The notes under the pieces: generated by a model | Told to the model about the DNA's origin: nothing | The model's database searches: none | The model's input: the letters and a program-made list of their open reading frames with translations, nothing else | Shown here: in pieces, positions 32,211 to 52,114 of the stretch | How the letters are laid out: the number at the start of each line of letters is the position of its first letter | Position numbering within the stretch: the first letter of the stretch is position 1 | Translations under genes and position numbers: made by a program | Assembly (NCBI GenBank): GCA_024998595.1 | Contig: JACOEK010000002.1 | Span: forward strand, 558,001 to 622,000 | DNA length: 64,000 bases | Reading direction: 5' to 3' | Source of the DNA: Nitrospira sp. | GTDB taxonomy: Bacteria; Nitrospirota; Nitrospiria; Nitrospirales; Nitrospiraceae

Positions 32211-33803
32211 TCACAGATCATTCCCTGCATAGGACAAATTGAAACTTTTATTGATCAACGGAAAGTCCGGCACGATATTGCCAAGTGCGGCCCATTGGAT
32301 CGCCGGCCAATGCACGAAGGACGGATCGCGCACTTTGCAGCGATGAATCCGCCCTTCTTCTCCGGCCATGACCATGTATAGAATTTCGCCTCGCCATCCT
32401 TCGACCGCTGACAGGGCCCATGCCCCGGGCTGCGGTTGGTGCATCGGCTGGGATACGAGCCGGCCCAGCGGAAGACCCCGACGGACCTCACGAATGAGAC
32501 GGATTGATTCATGGATCTCATCCAGGCGCACCCGCATCCTCGCGCGCACATCGCCGTAGCGGTAGAGCGCGACGTTCGGTTGGAGCACATCATAGGCAGC
32601 AAAGGGGCGGTCCCGACGAAGATCCCGATCGATCCCGGAGGCCCGGCCCACCACACCCATCACGGCATGGTCCCAGGCGATCCCTTCCGTGAGGATACCG
32701 GTATTCTCCAGCCGTTCCGTGAGCGACGCGTTCGCGAACACAATCTTTTCGATCGCCGAAAAATCCTGCTCCAGCGCATTCAGTTCTACCTCCACCTGCG
32801 CGAGCTGGATGCCTGACAGATCGAGCACCACACCGCCGACACAATTGACCCCGCGCAGAAAACGCGAGCCGGTCAAGCGATCGTTGAGCTGCATCAGTTG
32901 TTCTTTCATCCGGCCGCAGTGGGCATGGGCCAGGGCATAGGCGGTGTCGTTGCAGATGGCTCCCACATCGCCGATGTGATTGTGCAACCGCTCCAGTTCC
33001 AGAAACAGCGTGCGCAGATATCGGGCACGCGGCGAGACCTCCACGCCCAGCAATGTCTCGACGGCCTGGCAATAGGTCATGCTATGGCCGACGCTCGTGT
33101 CGCCGGAAACCCGTTCCGACAACGGGACCGCTTCCGTCAACTGCTGCTGCTCGAACAACTTCTCAATGCCGCGATGTTTCCAGAAATGGCGCACTTCGAG
33201 TTGCATGATGGGCTCACCGGCCACCGAAAACCGGAAATGACCCGGTTCGATGATGCCCGCATGGATGGGACCGACAGGAACCTCGAAGACCCCCTCACCG
33301 TGAATTTTCCGAAAGGCATACTGCCCTTGCACACGTCCCAACACCCGATCCCAGGGAAACTCTTTCTTCAGCGGATGGGAGCCTTTCGGCCAATGTTCAT
33401 GTCGAACGAGCCGCCGCATATCCGGATGGCCGACCGGAATCAGCCCGAACAGATCCCGAATCTCCCGCTCGTACCACTTTGCCGCATGGAGATGCGGGGT
33501 GATCGACGGAAATTCCCGCTCCTCTCCATGGAGATCCGTCGCGAGCAGCAGCCAGTCTTTGCGTTTCGCCAATGTGAAGAGGTAGCAGAGTTCGTAGCGC
33601 GCTTCGCGAGGGCGATGATCGACCGCCCACAGCAGCGACAACGACCCTCGTAGATTCGGATTCGTGTGTAGAAAATGGGCGACCGTCGGCAGATCCTGCT
33701 TCCTCATCCTGAGCAACGGGATGCCGTGTACGGTGCGCACCTCCGCAATGGCCTGCGTATACGCCGCTTGCACCTGTTCGACCGCCGGACGTGCGTCGCT
33801 CAT
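32211..33803 (-). CDS. HycE/HyfG-like large subunit lacking NiFe ligands (NuoC-NuoD fusion, Ehr-type)
   Basis: 530 residues. Residues 1-160 are a NuoC-like 30-kDa domain (WYEREIRDLFGLIPVGHPDM), and the rest is a NuoD/hydrogenase-large-type domain (GPIHAGIIEPGHFRF, HRGIEKLFE). In true group 4 hydrogenases the first nickel motif is E-R-x-C-G-x-C; here residues 230-237 read ERVSGDTS, with Ser233 and Thr236. The C-terminal Cys pair is also absent (ending KSFNLSYAGNDL). It therefore cannot hold a NiFe centre and is not a hydrogenase. This is the pattern described for energy-converting hydrogenase-related (Ehr) complexes. The reaction, perhaps quinone- or ferredoxin-linked, is unknown. Confidence 0.88.
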   Translation of the reverse strand: MSDARPAVEQVQAAYTQAIAEVRTVHGIPLLRMRKQDLPTVAHFLHTNPNLRGSLSLLWAVDHRPREARYELCYLFTLAKRKDWLLLATDLHGEEREFPSITPHLHAAKWYEREIRDLFGLIPVGHPDMRRLVRHEHWPKGSHPLKKEFPWDRVLGRVQGQYAFRKIHGEGVFEVPVGPIHAGIIEPGHFRFSVAGEPIMQLEVRHFWKHRGIEKLFEQQQLTEAVPLSERVSGDTSVGHSMTYCQAVETLLGVEVSPRARYLRTLFLELERLHNHIGDVGAICNDTAYALAHAHCGRMKEQLMQLNDRLTGSRFLRGVNCVGGVVLDLSGIQLAQVEVELNALEQDFSAIEKIVFANASLTERLENTGILTEGIAWDHAVMGVVGRASGIDRDLRRDRPFAAYDVLQPNVALYRYGDVRARMRVRLDEIHESIRLIREVRRGLPLGRLVSQPMHQPQPGAWALSAVEGWRGEILYMVMAGEEGRIHRCKVRDPSFVHWPAIQWAALGNIVPDFPLINKSFNLSYAGNDL

Positions 33804-45685: not shown

Positions 45686-46332
45686 ATGAAGAGCTCCATC
45701 AGTTCTTCCGGTCGTTCAATAAACCAATCCGGTTGGCACGCCGCCATCCGCTGACGATTCCCCATGCCGTATCCCACCGCACAGACCCGAATGCCCGCAT
45801 TGTGTCCGCCGTTGATGTCGTTGGTGCTGTCGCCGATGAGGACCGTGCGATCTTTGTCGACGCCGAGTTGTTCCATCACATGCACGAGCATGCCCGGCTC
45901 GGGCTTCAGGCCGAAGCCATTGTCCCCGCCGACCACATAGGCAAAGTGCTGCGGCCCGAGTCCGTTCAAAATCACGTTGGTATATTCGATCGCTTTATTG
46001 GTTGCCACGGCTTTGGGCTTCGCGGAAAAATGCGTCAGGACTTGATCGATTCCCGGGTAGAAGGTGGTGCGGTCGAGGCAATGAGTTAAGTAGTGGCCGC
46101 GAAAGATGCGCAGCGCTTCGTCGTACAGATCCTTCTTACCCTCGCCGACTGCCAGGCGCAGCAGTTTCTTCACGCCGTCGCCGACAAATCCGAAAATTTC
46201 CTCCTGCGGACGCTCCGGCACGCCCAGATCGCGCAACGTCAAATTGACGCTGTCGGCGATATCCCACTTCGACTCGATGAGCGTGCCGTCCAGGTCGAAG
46301 ATGAGCAAATCGATCTCAGACTTTTTCGTCAT
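45682..46332 (-). CDS. gph: HAD phosphatase, phosphoglycolate phosphatase-like
   Basis: 216 residues from the ATG at 46332; the frame is open further upstream but only with unrelated sequence. HAD motifs: DLDGTLIESKWDIADSVN (nucleophile and acid Asp), ATNKAIEYTN, Lys in GLKPEPGML and IGDSTNDINGGHNAGI. The helical cap (about 20-85) matches the Gph/PGP group, which removes phosphate from 2-phosphoglycolate; the exact substrate is a family guess. It overlaps the gene before it by 4 bases (46329-46332) and the M16 gene after it by 4 (45682-45685), so all three are coupled. Confidence 0.82.
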   Translation of the reverse strand: MTKKSEIDLLIFDLDGTLIESKWDIADSVNLTLRDLGVPERPQEEIFGFVGDGVKKLLRLAVGEGKKDLYDEALRIFRGHYLTHCLDRTTFYPGIDQVLTHFSAKPKAVATNKAIEYTNVILNGLGPQHFAYVVGGDNGFGLKPEPGMLVHVMEQLGVDKDRTVLIGDSTNDINGGHNAGIRVCAVGYGMGNRQRMAACQPDWFIERPEELMELFI

Positions 46333-46907
46333 TCTTTTGCCTTTCGCAATTCTACCTGCAAGGCCGCCAGCGAGGCCTGCCGCGTTCCATCTTGTTCTTC
46401 CAGCATGGCCTGCCGCACCACATTCAACATGCGTTTCTGACCCACGTGAGGCGGCAGAATCGGCTCCATGATTTTCCACCGCCCATTCATCACCTTGAGC
46501 CGGACACGCGCCTGCTCCGTGCCGGGCTCGGGCACAAACCCGGCAGTATCCAGGTACATGACGCCCAGCACGCGAAACTCCACCGGCACTACGACCTCCA
46601 GCCGGTTCACAATCTCCCATTGGCGAAAATCATCCGGCACCGTGAAGCCGGTAATGACGATGACTTTGCCCCAGGCCGGTTCTTCCTTCCAGTCGACATA
46701 CCCGGCCACCGCTTCGAAGGAACTCGCATCGAGTCGCACGCCCTTGTTATCGAGGGCGAAATATTTTTCCACCACTTTGGCCGGTGAATGCGACACTGCG
46801 TTGCTTTGCGCGTGCCCGGGCAAGGCCCAAGCCGTGAGCCAGACAATTCCCGCTATCAATCCGATGGTTGCCACGCGTAGAGACATCATACCGCTAACTG
46901 ACCTCAT
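46329..46907 (-). CDS. Exported protein of unknown function in the pyk operon
   Basis: 192 residues. Signal peptide (LRVATIGLIAGIVWLTAWALPGHA, core TIGLIAGIVWLTAWAL), cleavage before QSNAVS. The first ATG at 46907 lies inside the end of pyk; ATGs at 46889 and 46886 are better placed before the signal and also fit. The mature protein is about 160 residues, with KVVEKYFALDNKGVRL, a WEIVNRLEVVVPVEFRVLG segment and a basic C-terminal helix. It looks like a small NTF2-like or lipocalin-like fold, but I cannot name it. Coupled to pyk upstream and gph downstream by overlapping codons. Confidence 0.72.
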   Translation of the reverse strand: MRSVSGMMSLRVATIGLIAGIVWLTAWALPGHAQSNAVSHSPAKVVEKYFALDNKGVRLDASSFEAVAGYVDWKEEPAWGKVIVITGFTVPDDFRQWEIVNRLEVVVPVEFRVLGVMYLDTAGFVPEPGTEQARVRLKVMNGRWKIMEPILPPHVGQKRMLNVVRQAMLEEQDGTRQASLAALQVELRKAKE

Positions 46908-48345
46908 GCAGTTTCATGAGATTCGTTCCGCCTGGCTGCCCGACTCTTGTCCCGGACAGAATGACGATGCGTTCCCCTTGCTTGACCAGACCTTCCATCT
47001 TCAGCCGTCGCTCCGCCTCATTGACCCGCTCGTCGGTCGTCGGAATCTGCACCATGGTGTGGGGCAACAGGCCCCAATAGAGCGCCATCTGCCGACGGAT
47101 CGGCTCGAACGGAGTAAAACCGATGATCGGCGCAGCCGGACGTTGTTTGGAGACCAACCGGGCCGTCGTGCCCCGCTCGCTGAACGCCACAATAGCCGTC
47201 GCCCCGGTCGCGGCCGCCGCCGAGGAGGCGGACAAACAGATGGCCTCTTCAAACGTCAGCCGCCGATCGTCAGGCGAAGCCCTCCGGACGAAACCCGGCC
47301 CCGTTTCGACCTCCGCCGCCCGCACGATGCGGTCCATCACCTGCACCACTTCAACCGGATACTGCCCGACGGCCGTCTCGGCCGACAACATGACGGCATC
47401 AGTGCCATCGAACACGGCATTGGCCACATCCGACGCTTCCGCTCTGGTCGGCCGCATATGCTGCGTCATCGACTCCAGCATTTGCGTGGCCGTGATCACC
47501 AGGCGTCGATGTCGATTCGCAGTGGCGATAATGCGCTTCTGCAACACCGGCACAGCCTCAGGCCCCAATTCCACGCCTAAATCCCCACGCGCGACCATCA
47601 CGCCATCCGCATGCGTCAGGATGGCCTCCAAATCCGTCACCGCTTCCTGCCGTTCAATCTTTGCGATCACCGGCACATCTCCGCCGCACTCGGCGATCAG
47701 CTGTTTGGCGGCCAGGATATCCTCCGCGCCCCGCACAAATGACAGCGCGATATAATCCACGCCTTGTGCGACGCCGAATCGCAAATCCTCGCGGTCTTTG
47801 TCGGTCAACGTCGGCGCGCTGACCACCGTCCCCGGCAGATTCATGCCCTTATGCGACGTCACACGACCGCCCGCCACCACCGTGCATTCCACTGCGCCGT
47901 CGATGATACGATCAGCCGTCAATTCCACGAGGCCGTCATCGATCAGTATTTTGGCCCCTGGCCGAATGTCCCTAGTCAGCGCTTGGTACGTCACGGGAAT
48001 CTCTTGCGCCATATCGGTCGACTGCACGGCCCTGGCGCCGATCTGCCCGCCGGATCGCAATGTCATCGTCCGCAACCGCACACGTTGGCCGGCGCGAAGT
48101 TCCAATATTCCGTCGATCTCGCCGACGCGAATGCGCGGCCCTTGCAGGTCCTGAATGATGGCGACCGCCACACCTTGACGGTCAGCCGCCTCGCGAATCA
48201 CTTTGATTGCGTGTCCATGGGAGGCATGGGTGCCGTGAGAAAAGTTCAGCCGCGCCGCATTCATGCCGCTCTGTATGAGCTGCTCCAGCACGCCCGCGCC
48301 ATCGCTCGCAGGACCGATGGTACAGACGATTTTCGCTTTTCGCAT
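46894..48345 (-). CDS. pyk: Pyruvate kinase
   Basis: 483 residues from the ATG at 48345; the open frame to 48471 adds sequence unlike the family. N-terminus MRKAKIVCTIGPAS, then NFSHGTH, and the active-site region VIAKIERQEAVTDLEAIL with the catalytic Lys, followed by VMVARGDLGVELGPEAVP and TATQMLESM. A lid (B) domain spans about 70-165 and the C-terminal domain about 340-483. It makes pyruvate and ATP from phosphoenolpyruvate. First gene of a five-gene overlapping unit, and divergent from the phosphofructokinase fusion with a 208-base shared upstream region, so two glycolytic kinase-type genes are set back to back. Confidence 0.95.
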   Translation of the reverse strand: MRKAKIVCTIGPASDGAGVLEQLIQSGMNAARLNFSHGTHASHGHAIKVIREAADRQGVAVAIIQDLQGPRIRVGEIDGILELRAGQRVRLRTMTLRSGGQIGARAVQSTDMAQEIPVTYQALTRDIRPGAKILIDDGLVELTADRIIDGAVECTVVAGGRVTSHKGMNLPGTVVSAPTLTDKDREDLRFGVAQGVDYIALSFVRGAEDILAAKQLIAECGGDVPVIAKIERQEAVTDLEAILTHADGVMVARGDLGVELGPEAVPVLQKRIIATANRHRRLVITATQMLESMTQHMRPTRAEASDVANAVFDGTDAVMLSAETAVGQYPVEVVQVMDRIVRAAEVETGPGFVRRASPDDRRLTFEEAICLSASSAAAATGATAIVAFSERGTTARLVSKQRPAAPIIGFTPFEPIRRQMALYWGLLPHTMVQIPTTDERVNEAERRLKMEGLVKQGERIVILSGTRVGQPGGTNLMKLHEVS

Positions 48346-48553
48346 GCTGCGGTTCTTCTGTCTTGACAAGATTGGCCCGGCACACCATCTTGTACGTAAA
48401 CGGCAAGGCTCACGACATCCGGGATTCAGACGGCATCGGGTCATTCTAACAAACCCGTCCGCATGCCGCAAAAGAACATCTCCAGACGTTCAGACGCACA
48501 GCCGCACCGGATCTTGAACTCTTTGTGACGAACCCTACACCACGAGGCCATTC

Positions 48554-50893
48554 ATGAGTGCATCGGACAAGCAGTCAACGGAGCAGTTGGACTTTGTCAC
48601 GATGGAAGGCCTGCTGGCCTACGGAACCGCCCTTTCCCAGCGCTCATCGAGCGGGAGGTCCCTGTTGCCACCTCCGCCCCCGCCTACTTCCGACCGGCTG
48701 CAGCAGGCGCAATCAGCGGCAGAACGGATCAAAACGTTCATTCGGCATGCACAGGCGGGCCTGCCCAGCGCCGAGGCCTATCGCGCGGCACGGCAGGAGC
48801 TCATCAGCACAGCGTGCGGAAACGATCCACTGGTGTTCTTCGCCGCCTGGAATCTCTTGCTTGCCCGCGGCGAACTCGCGCCTTTGTACCGGGCGCCGAT
48901 CGGCGCGACCCAAAAACCTGCACACCGCCGGCCGGTGGCCATCGTGCCGCGGACTCAATTAACGCCGCAGCTGGCCGAAGGCCGTATCGTGCTGGATCTC
49001 GGCGATGATCGCTTCTGGCTGCTTCCCCGCGACCTGGGCGACCGCACCCTCTTTCTCACCATGCGGCACGGCGTCTCCGAGGTCGAAAGCAAAACCCATC
49101 GGGTGGGCCGGCGACTGGCGAATGTGTTGGATACCGAACGGGGTGTGCCCAGGGCGGAGGCCGTGGGCGCCGCACTGGCTCGCATGGTCGGGGTCGTCGG
49201 CCAACAATTGGGATATCTGCAATTGCGCAATTACCTCGATCCGCGCACGTTCCTACACCTCATCAGTCACAGCCCCAATACGGAGCAACTCTGCCGGCGC
49301 ATCACCAAGGCCTTGCTCCCGGAAGGGGCGGATGCGGTGCATCCCCACATTGAACCGACCTTGGAATCGCAAGATTTCGGCTGGGTCACCGGCATGGAGA
49401 AACAAGCGGAGCTGGAGGCGGCGGCACAGGCGTTCGGGGTCGATGCGAAGACCGCTAAACGGCTGATCAAGCATCCGTTCTACAGCTACCCCGGGGGGCA
49501 TTCATTTTTTGATCTCTATGTCGATGTCATCGACGGCCTCCACCGGCTGGGACGTTCACACCCGGGCGAAGTCCTGTGTCTCTATACCCACAGCTCGACC
49601 CTGCGCGCGCTGCGGATCTACCTGGACCCGCGTCCCTTCCGCGAAGCCTTTTCGGAATTCGGCGAATATAAGGAAGGGCAGGACAATGTGGTGCTGCTCA
49701 CCTTGGAGAACGGCAAGCTCTCCGGGTACTCCACCGCCGTGGGACTGATCGAAAGCGACCGGGTCGCACGTGAGGCCTGGGTCACGGTTGAACGGGAACG
49801 CAGTCAGCGCGTGACCCTGAAGCCCGGGCGCATCAAACGACTGATCGCCTTGGTGTCCGGCGGAGATTTCGGTGGCGGCGGGGCAGCCTTGAAGGAGTTG
49901 CGCGTCACCGGTAACCGTTTCGGTTTGGACGTCTTGTTTGTCCGGCATGGATTTCTCGGCTTGGCCAACAATTGGATCGATGCCGTCACCGAGGAGGATA
50001 CGCGCGGCATGAGCAGCCATGCCAGCAGCCCCATCGGCAGCAGCCGGTTCGAGGATTTCAAAGACGAGCAGGTGCAACGTGCCGCCATGCGATCCCTTGC
50101 CCCCTATCTCGAAGATTCGGCGCTTGTGGTCTTAGGAGGAGACGGCAGCTTGCGCGGCGCGCGGGCGATCCACGAGACGTACGGCGTGCAAGTGGTCGGC
50201 ATTCCCGGCACCATCGATAACAACATCGCCGGCACCACGTCGCTAGGATTTCATTCCGCGATCGCCCTCGCGAACCAGTCCATTGAATCACTGAAAGCGA
50301 CCAGCGCTGCCATGGGCAGCATCTTCTTCGTCGAGGTCATGGGCGCCGGGTCCGGCCACCTGGCCTTGGCATGCGCCTACCAAGCCAGGGCGGAAGGGAT
50401 CCTGGTCAATGAACATCCCGATCCCGATGCCTATATCGATGACATTGTCCTGGGTACGTTGCAACGCACATTGGGCGTGCCGAACAAAAGCCATATCTTT
50501 GTCGTTGCGGAGCGGACCCCCCACCGTCATCACCGGGAAGGCGGCGTCCATGGGCTGGTCGATTATGTCGCGCAGACCATTGCCACATGGCCCCAACGTC
50601 GTGAGTCTACCGGCCAGTATTCGCTGGCATCGGCCACGAAGGCCACGATTCTCGGACATACGCTCAGAGGCGCGCCCCCGACGCCGGAAGATAAAATGAT
50701 CGCGCAACATCTCGCCTACGAAACGGTTCGGCGTCTCGTCGAACAACCGGACACTATCGTCGGCTGCATGGTCGCCTATCATGATTCGAACCGGATCGAA
50801 ACGATTCCGTTGCATGCCGTGTCGCCCAAACCATTTGACTGGGAATTGTTTACCCGAATGCACGTCGCGGAGTTGCAGCACGACAGGGTTTAG
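48554..50893 (+). CDS. Histidine-phosphatase / 6-phosphofructokinase fusion protein
   Basis: 779 residues. Part 1 (about 165-400) is a histidine-phosphatase (PGM-like) domain: phosphohistidine motif FLTMRHGVSE (Arg171, His172) and second His346 in YTHSSTLRALRIYL. Part 2 (about 425-770) is a PFK fold: SGGDFGGGGAAL (435-446), GGDGS (528-532), PGTIDNN (551-557, catalytic Asp555 kept but the second Asp is Asn), EVMGAGSG (594-601) and KATILGHTLRGAPP. Gly in GGDGS points to ATP, not pyrophosphate. Two fructose-6-phosphate-binding Arg of the E. coli enzyme (162 and 171) appear replaced, so the sugar substrate may differ. The N-terminus (35-45) is Pro-rich. Divergent from pyk. Confidence 0.8.
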   Translation: MSASDKQSTEQLDFVTMEGLLAYGTALSQRSSSGRSLLPPPPPPTSDRLQQAQSAAERIKTFIRHAQAGLPSAEAYRAARQELISTACGNDPLVFFAAWNLLLARGELAPLYRAPIGATQKPAHRRPVAIVPRTQLTPQLAEGRIVLDLGDDRFWLLPRDLGDRTLFLTMRHGVSEVESKTHRVGRRLANVLDTERGVPRAEAVGAALARMVGVVGQQLGYLQLRNYLDPRTFLHLISHSPNTEQLCRRITKALLPEGADAVHPHIEPTLESQDFGWVTGMEKQAELEAAAQAFGVDAKTAKRLIKHPFYSYPGGHSFFDLYVDVIDGLHRLGRSHPGEVLCLYTHSSTLRALRIYLDPRPFREAFSEFGEYKEGQDNVVLLTLENGKLSGYSTAVGLIESDRVAREAWVTVERERSQRVTLKPGRIKRLIALVSGGDFGGGGAALKELRVTGNRFGLDVLFVRHGFLGLANNWIDAVTEEDTRGMSSHASSPIGSSRFEDFKDEQVQRAAMRSLAPYLEDSALVVLGGDGSLRGARAIHETYGVQVVGIPGTIDNNIAGTTSLGFHSAIALANQSIESLKATSAAMGSIFFVEVMGAGSGHLALACAYQARAEGILVNEHPDPDAYIDDIVLGTLQRTLGVPNKSHIFVVAERTPHRHHREGGVHGLVDYVAQTIATWPQRRESTGQYSLASATKATILGHTLRGAPPTPEDKMIAQHLAYETVRRLVEQPDTIVGCMVAYHDSNRIETIPLHAVSPKPFDWELFTRMHVAELQHDRV

Positions 50894-51109: not shown

Positions 51110-51571
51110 ATGTCTGTCCCGCGCTTCACACGTCTTGTCCTCTGGCTGTGCGCGACCCTGCTCCTTCACCTGGGCCTCGCCTTAACGGCTGAAGCAGGAC
51201 AGGCACTTCTCGATTCACCGGCTCCGCTCCTCACTCCTGTGCCCCACCAGGCCCCGCCTACACAGGACGGATTAGTTCGCGCCAGCCCCGAGACGAAGCA
51301 ACGCGAAGGTCCCGACACGATCCCTCCGGCCGCCCGGGAAACCCTCAAAGCGATTGAAGCACGGCATGGAGACCCCTTGCCGGGATATATCGGGGGACGC
51401 AACTTTCAAAATCGGGAACGCGTTCTCCCACGGGGTCGCTATCGTGAATATGACGTGCATCCGAAGGTGCCGGGGAAAAACCGCGGAGCCGAACGGATCG
51501 TGATCAATCAGGCCAGCGGCAAGGCCTATTATACCGCCGATCACTATCGTTCATTTGTTCCGATGAATTGA
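51110..51571 (+). CDS. Secreted barnase/RNase Sa-type ribonuclease
   Basis: 153 residues. Signal peptide (LVLWLCATLLLHLGLALTAEA, cleavage about residue 29), a Pro-rich linker (32-70), then a catalytic domain of about 82 residues. Microbial RNase motifs are complete: IPPAARETLKAIEA, FQNRERVLP, general base Glu113 in YREYDV, Arg125 and Arg129 in NRGAERIV, and general acid His145 in YYTADHYRSF. These enzymes cut single-stranded RNA, mostly after G. The product is exported, so it may act in nutrition or against other cells. The barstar gene begins 6 bases downstream. Confidence 0.88.
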   Translation: MSVPRFTRLVLWLCATLLLHLGLALTAEAGQALLDSPAPLLTPVPHQAPPTQDGLVRASPETKQREGPDTIPPAARETLKAIEARHGDPLPGYIGGRNFQNRERVLPRGRYREYDVHPKVPGKNRGAERIVINQASGKAYYTADHYRSFVPMN

Positions 51572-51577
51572 GGACAC

Positions 51578-52114
51578 ATGTCGATTACTGCGCTCCAATC
51601 GATCAAGAAACCATGGGCCCACCTCCTGGTGCATACCGAGGGAGAGGCGCTGGATAAACTGCTGTCGGTTCCCGCCCACTTTGTGACCAAAACGATCTCC
51701 GGGAAAAAATGTAAAACCAAAGCCGGGCTGCTGGATGAATTCAGCCGGGTCTTCTCCTTTCCCGATTACTTCGGCCATAACTGGGATGCCCTGGAAGAGT
51801 GCCTGGCCGACCTCGACTGGCTACCGGCCAAAGGCTACCTCGTCGTGGTCACGGATGCCGATCAGGTGCTGACGAAACCCGACGAGGAAGACGACTTTGA
51901 AACCTTTGTCGAAATCTTGAGCGAGGCCGGTGAAGCGTGGAGCCTGAAGGAGTCCGACGACGCGACAGGAAACGGCCTGCCGTTCCATGCCGTGCTGGCG
52001 GTCCAGGAACGGCATAGACGTAGCCGCCACAATTGGTTCGCGCCGCCCCTGGCCATGGAGCGCAAGGCGACGAAATCCGGCGGCCCCAAGGGATCGAAAT
52101 CCGGCGGTCGGTAG
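51578..52114 (+). CDS. Barstar-family RNase inhibitor
   Basis: 178 residues, longer than classic barstar (about 90). The core motif is plain: FPDYFGHNWDALEECLADLDW, with Asp70 at the position of barstar Asp35 and Glu74 for Asp39, residues that plug the RNase active site. The following strands (GYLVVVTDADQVL) and helices (FETFVEILSEAGEAWS) fit. The C-terminal 30 residues are basic and low-complexity (KATKSGGPKGSKSGGR). No signal peptide, so it would protect the cytoplasm against the RNase encoded 6 bases upstream. Confidence 0.9.
   Translation: MSITALQSIKKPWAHLLVHTEGEALDKLLSVPAHFVTKTISGKKCKTKAGLLDEFSRVFSFPDYFGHNWDALEECLADLDWLPAKGYLVVVTDADQVLTKPDEEDDFETFVEILSEAGEAWSLKESDDATGNGLPFHAVLAVQERHRRSRHNWFAPPLAMERKATKSGGPKGSKSGGR

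Follow-up and report, generated by a model that had tools for sequence, protein, structure and literature searches.

The animal enzyme PFK-2/FBPase-2 (PFKFB) carries a kinase and a histidine phosphatase (HP) in one chain; its kinase is a P-loop kinase, and the kinase domain comes first. In animal phosphofructokinases (PFKs), the C-terminal half became an effector site. Animal and yeast PFKs have, like the protein treated here, been extended by fusion, but what was added there is either another copy of the PFK or a domain resembling glyoxalase rather than an HP (PMC12203962). The same review describes three donor signatures: GGDG, the Gly/Lys of P(G/K)TIDXD and a third Gly. Asp129 (E. coli PfkA numbering) has been described as a Mg2+/cofactor residue, and active PPi-dependent PFKs, some of which use sedoheptulose 7-phosphate (S7P), have Met, Tyr or Cys in place of Arg162 (PMC10339645). 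The PFK fusions in the review involve other domains and the string "Nitrospir" does not occur in its main text (PMC12203962); the fusion treated in PMC2964296 is a different one. In the literature that we searched on the fusion and on Nitrospira sugar metabolism, with subscription papers mostly outside its scope, we recognized no description of an HP-PFK fusion, and no characterized family with this pair of domains was found there.

The window analyzed here, a 64,000-nucleotide stretch of a Nitrospira contig, encodes such a fusion (48554..50893, + strand; 779 amino acids, ATG start, P0001), of which full-length homologues exist. The preliminary description had proposed that an HP and a PFK domain are joined in one chain, and the open reading frame, Pfam and fold matches confirm this. 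The order is a helical N-terminus, a branch-1 HP and a PFK-superfamily domain. The helical part (residues 17-113; 48602..48892, +) has no significant Pfam or PDB-sequence match, and the N-terminal 151 residues likewise had no significant relatives in searches of Pfam and PDB sequences. The HP domain (residues 164-395; 49043..49738, +) was assigned by Pfam and fold. Its PF00300 match (residues 258-362; E 5.8e-5) is weak and above the cut-off (23.3 bits vs 21.7), and the HP region matched the same model in all 21 fusion family members scanned (E ≤ 0.1). The PFK domain (residues 427-757; 49832..50824, +) was assigned by Pfam, fold and residue mapping, and its PF00365 match is strong (residues 431-726; E 8.5e-57; 193.1 bits vs a cut-off of 30.9). 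At E ≤ 1, the Pfam matches were limited to PFK, His_Phos_1 and, below threshold, NAD kinase, with no P-loop 6-phosphofructo-2-kinase domain. None of the NCBIfam PFK models reached its cut-off (best 188 vs 253 bits; TIGR02482 175.1 vs 371.35). Two copies (L038 and L039) are split between two frames in the draft genomes G053 and G036, by assembly error or decay.

We predicted the structure with AlphaFold from a 41-sequence family alignment. The mean pLDDT of the whole protein was 71.7, and confidence was good for most of the HP and for the helices of the N-terminus and poor over much of the C-terminal half of the PFK domain. Structural alignment of the PFK part with E. coli PfkA confirmed the PFK fold (best Z 24.9, rmsd 2.7, 206 residues aligned). 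Searches of PDB sequences with the HP part, as a single sequence and as a profile, gave nothing significant; fold comparison succeeded, with Z 16.4-16.8 to branch-1 HP enzymes for the full-length model. A model of the HP alone (pLDDT 66.8, pTM 0.70) ranked PhoE/YhfR (1ebb) first (Z 13.4, 161 aligned, rmsd 3.5). Foldseek rows for the whole model had rmsd values of 11-27 Å because much of the model is of low confidence. The fusion shares with PFKFB a kinase and an HP in one chain. It differs in that its kinase has the PFK-superfamily fold, the phosphatase comes first and the HP acid position appears changed. The HP profile aligned weakly with the YxYPGGxS..DL stretch of PFKFB2, which was not significant (E 0.37, ranked below a chance match at 0.026). 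The resemblance to PFK-2/FBPase-2 pointed out earlier holds as an analogy only, because the kinase fold is the glycolytic one.

We mapped the PFK domain onto E. coli PfkA (1pfk) and tallied residues over 90 distinct relatives, using 14 stand-alone PFKs as comparators. Besides the fold, the fusion shares with PfkA the GGDG motif, the base Asp127, Arg72, Glu222, His249 and Arg252. Positions kept in 90/90 relatives are R72, D103, G104, G108, G124, D127 (D555 in the window protein), M169, G170, E222, H249 and R252. GGDGS (residues 528-532; 50135..50149, +) is an ATP-type donor signature, and all three signature positions (G104, G108, G124) are of the ATP type in 90/90, though the last D of P(G/K)TIDXD is broken. 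Unlike in PfkA, D129, R162, R171 and R243 are replaced in all 90 relatives, by Asn, by Ser (84) or Thr (6), by Ala and by Lys, respectively. In the window, PGTIDNN (551-557; 50204..50224, +) keeps the base as D555 and has N557 in place of Asp129, and MGSIFFVEVMGA (587-598; 50312..50347, +) has S589 for Arg162 and A598 for Arg171 while retaining Met169 as M596. Further on are K696 (Arg243), H702 (His249) and R705 (Arg252) (50639..50668, +). The preliminary reading by eye, that Arg162 and Arg171 are lost and that TIDND reads TIDNN, was thus correct, and with Arg243, which like Arg162 is a ligand of the phosphate of fructose 6-phosphate, also replaced, not all of the PFK sugar ligands are present.

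Stand-alone PFKs keep D129 and R162 in 14/14 cases, which leaves D129N and R162S/T as the two replacements that, within this set, occur solely in the fusion. R171 and R243 are each kept in 12 of the 14; one stand-alone PFK (L161) has Ala at Arg171, and the Bacillus methanolicus PFK and the PPi-PFK of the window's own genome have Lys at Arg243. The altered sugar-binding residues stand, whereas the loss of Arg162 is a weaker sign of lost fructose 6-phosphate use than had been stated, because active PPi-PFKs have Met, Tyr or Cys at that position. The T125 position is Thr in 54/90 relatives and Ser in 36/90, and position 128 is Asn in 73/90 and Asp in 17/90. The latter 17 read IDDN rather than IDNN (residues 553-557; 50210-50224), and this Asp, one place ahead of the lost Asp129, is possibly a compensating metal ligand.

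A family-specific His-rich loop, PHRHHREGGVHG (residues 656-667; 50519..50554, +), has P656, H657, H660, G663, G664 and G667 invariant in the tally of 90 relatives. In the fused set the effector site is altered at R25, R211 and K213; at R54 the fusion has Glu or Asp, but this position is variable among stand-alone PFKs too. As a raw count with no null expectation, 26 columns distinguish fused from stand-alone sequences at thresholds of ≥ 25/26 fused rows (23 distinct) and 12/14 stand-alone rows; they comprise 23 residue switches and 3 inserted columns and include the new R612 and N619. The conserved His-rich loop, the HP domain, the helical N-terminus, the effector-site changes and the scores below all NCBIfam PFK cut-offs set the fusion further apart from PfkA.

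The HP domain shares with branch-1 enzymes (PhoE/YhfR, phosphoserine phosphatase, dPGM) the fold, the RHG motif and the second catalytic His. RHG (R171 H172 G173; 49064..49072, +) and H346 (49589..49591, +) are present in 90/90 relatives. The earlier claim of complete RHG and His motifs is borne out to this extent, but other members of the usual HP catalytic set appear to be missing from their places (Glu244, Ser272). To place the second catalytic Arg and the usual acid we used a profile alignment, which is weak (E 0.011, probability 3.7%), together with the pattern of predicted strands and helices; these put them probably in SPNTE (residues 240-244; 49271..49285, +) and ESQD (residues 271-274; 49364..49375, +). 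Unlike in branch 1, the putative Arg position is variable: Arg in 55/90 relatives, Glu in 17/90 including the window (Glu244), and Thr, Ser, Lys, His or Gln in 18/90. The probable position of the usual Glu, four before a conserved Gly, is Ser in 89/90 (Ser272), and Asp274, two residues on, is invariant. Asp274 might serve in place of the usual HP acid.

We surveyed the distribution of the fusion at several scales. Among 61 genomes (the window's own and 60 relatives), it is full length in 35 and split in 3. It occurs in 28 of 29 genomes of the window's genus, in one of them as two pieces at contig ends. The exception, G004, is a single-contig genome that retains another PF00365 gene, so the fusion is dispensable there. 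Among 395 Nitrospirota genomes, the fusion is full length in 97 and partial or in pieces in 3 (G254, G300, G326), all within the window's class; 117 other genomes have weaker matches, which among the matches listed cover the PFK part only. The own assembly (G000) is 4.23 Mb, and copies are also found in Candidatus Nitrospira defluvii FP929003.1 (G023, same genus) and N. moscoviensis NZ_CP011801.1. For a wider contig scan we took two peptide patterns of the HP domain as queries and kept the best 80 of 113 relatives. Of these 80, 78 are labelled Nitrospira or Nitrospirota, one Nitrospinota (L088) and one Nitrosospira (L044). No place in plasmid records covered 80% of the fusion query. Within the genomes searched (395 Nitrospirota; best 80 of 113 relatives), the fusion is restricted to Nitrospira's class.

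A phylogeny of the PFK domain (26 fused rows, 23 distinct, and 14 stand-alone PFKs) placed the fusions as one group on one side of a single branch with 100/100 support. This branch is very long (5.88 changes per column) and the inner branches are short; the long branches leave the nearest relative of the fused PFK unsure. Across seven pairs, with dS saturated in some, dN/dS was 0.026-0.047 for the PFK domain and 0.017-0.085 for the HP, and six scorable pairs, again with some saturation, gave 0.05-0.15 for the N-terminus. The fusion is under strong purifying selection. We rejected degeneration, given dN/dS far below 1 and invariant catalytic residues.

A pyruvate kinase gene, pyk, lies about 0.2 kb upstream of the fusion in the window and is divergent (46894..48471, −, as a mechanical open reading frame, with a likely Met start near 48345), which agrees with the adjacency given in the preliminary description. 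Its product matches PF00224 and PF02887 and exceeds the TIGR01064 cut-off. Among the loci of the best 80 of 113 relatives, 53 have pyk close to the fusion: 32 divergent upstream, 16 downstream and co-directional, 4 convergent downstream and 1 upstream and co-directional. The gap is 44-671 bases in 52 of these loci and 2,430 in one, and 10 of the 53 carry a second pyk lineage, 38-39% identical to the window's pyk. In some groups of these loci pyk is retained where the rest of the conserved block was not found. This persistence across rearranged loci suggests that pyk and the fusion are functionally linked. The remaining 27 of the 80 loci have no pyk in the flanking DNA; in 14 of them more than 2 kb is available on both sides, so the link is truly absent there and is not universal. 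The loci without pyk include that of LK70 (L096), a complete ammonia oxidizer (PMC7078480). In 13 loci (L061, L062, L065-L070, L072, L075, L082, L090 and L098), the fusion alone is inverted relative to the window within an otherwise conserved block, between its pyk-hyp-gph and hemL sides. A 192-amino-acid protein without a Pfam match is encoded between gph and pyk (46332-46907, −) and recurs in 27 of the 80 loci.

The window's own genome encodes other enzymes of sugar metabolism. It has a separate PPi-type PFK (NF041103; 662.8 bits vs a cut-off of 550) and a class-1 fructose bisphosphatase (FBPase), so the ordinary steps can be covered. The transaldolase family PF00923 is represented by two genes and PF00300 by four loci including the fusion, one of which encodes a protein that we take to resemble dPGM.

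The reading that we favor, tentatively and with real reservations, is that the fusion is a neofunctionalized, ATP-dependent kinase of a sugar phosphate that is coupled to a phosphatase and has a link to pyruvate kinase. It would be an old bifunctional protein, found only in Nitrospira's class among the genomes searched, whose PFK domain was remodelled. The residue pattern suggests that this domain probably still binds ATP and transfers a phosphoryl group with the retained base Asp555. Its substrate may be a sugar phosphate held in the changed pocket, or turnover may be regulated and slow. The linked HP would act on a phosphate ester at the same metabolic node, in series with the kinase or opposing it, and the fusion and pyruvate kinase together could set or report the state of glycolysis versus gluconeogenesis. 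We infer, as the preliminary description had raised, that the fusion may have a different product and a role as a "switch".

Several observations support a changed function. The fusions are one group (100/100) behind the 5.88-change branch, after which the active-site changes are fixed in 90/90. A burst of change followed by fixed new residues, with the base and ATP signatures intact, points to a function that is changed and maintained. Further support comes from the 26 switched or inserted columns (a raw count), the retention of D127, R72, E222, H249, R252 and the ATP signatures in 90/90, low dN/dS, scores below all NCBIfam PFK cut-offs, and the own PPi-type PFK and FBPase. The presence of pyk in 53 of the 80 loci (best 80 of 113), in four arrangements and from two pyk lineages, adds to this: a rewritten, frozen active site and frequent pyk adjacency probably mean an altered function at a point where sugar metabolism is controlled. 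Against this reading, D129N removes a Mg2+-binding residue (PMC10339645) and could cripple catalysis, and the HP apparently has neither the acid in its standard position nor, in the window copy, the second Arg. The pyk link is not universal and G004 does without the fusion.

The changes might instead be tolerated in an ordinary, somewhat unusual, glycolytic ATP-dependent 6-phosphofructokinase with an accessory HP, which we consider possible, although on the unlikely side. In its favor, 90/90 relatives keep the base, the ATP signatures, His249, Arg252 and Glu222. Precedents exist for three of the replacements: R162 is replaced in active PPi-PFKs (PMC10339645), stand-alone L161 has R171A, and R243K occurs both in the B. 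methanolicus PFK and in the PPi-PFK of the own genome. Against it, Asp129, the last Asp of P(G/K)TIDXD, is lost in 90/90 fusions and in 0/14 stand-alone PFKs, and the very long branch with its 26 switched or inserted columns looks like more than tolerated drift. We surveyed PF00365 genes, with PfkB-type kinases outside the count, in 24 fusion-bearing and 8 other genomes, which were chosen and mostly near-complete. The fusion is the only PF00365 gene in 7/24 (G030, G044, G050, G060, G164, G224 and G319, of which G164 and G224 are single-contig genomes), a result that fits an ordinary PFK too. Another PF00365 gene is present in the other 17/24, which argues against an ordinary role. Of the 8 genomes without the fusion, 3 have another PF00365 gene and 5 have none. 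Complete glycolysis has been reported in Nitrospira (PMC8115632, PMC7078480), though Great Lakes Nitrospira were reported to lack phosphofructokinase (PMC9239080).

We judge it unlikely that the PFK domain is a pseudoenzyme or sensor that binds both ATP and a sugar phosphate, has no useful turnover of them, and controls the HP or pyruvate kinase. At the TIDNN motif, the C-terminal half of animal PFKs has NN as well (TISNN in alignments). The changed effector-site positions R25, R211 and K213, the apparently incomplete HP catalytic set and the pyk neighborhood would all suit a sensor. However, the animal C-terminal half has Ser at the base Asp127, whereas in the fusion this Asp, RHG and the second His are invariant, and a pseudoenzyme would be expected to lose such residues in some lineages.

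By analogy with PFK-2/FBPase-2, the fusion might be its bacterial counterpart, evolved independently on the glycolytic PFK fold, that makes and removes a regulatory sugar bisphosphate controlling the often-adjacent pyruvate kinase and so switches nitrifiers between building and burning sugar; we regard this as doubtful. The least probable alternative, an S7P kinase for a pentose-phosphate bypass, draws on the R162 substitution that accompanies S7P use in some PPi-PFKs (PMC10339645), but the bypass is described for organisms without transaldolase (PMC12203962) and is probably not needed with two PF00923 genes in the own genome, so we rejected it as the main role.

Nitrospira are widespread nitrite oxidizers that include complete ammonia oxidizers, and their glycolysis has been described from annotation. 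If the fusion does something other than ordinary PFK catalysis, maps of central carbon metabolism in Nitrospira may be wrong at a key step. The fusion also shows clearly how the active site of a PFK was rewritten and afterwards frozen while sharing its chain with a phosphatase, and through it the origin of kinase/phosphatase switches can be tested beyond animals.

Other genes near the fusion include, in one locus (L112), glgC and a branching-enzyme-like gene that adjoin it. We dropped a link to glycogen. PF08323 occurs in 359 of 395 genomes of the phylum, with and without the fusion, and its matches are weak in several f3 genomes that bear the fusion; the test is not decisive because glycogen synthesis in N. 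marina reportedly runs through GlgM/GlgE (PMC8115632). Directly downstream of the fusion in the window (51110-52114, +), a barnase-type ribonuclease gene (PF00545) is followed by a barstar gene (PF01337), and each accompanies the fusion in 27 of the 80 loci (best 80 of 113). Elsewhere in the window (32211-33803, −), a gene encodes a fused subunit that resembles the 30/49 kDa subunits of complex I and weakly matches NiFe hydrogenase.
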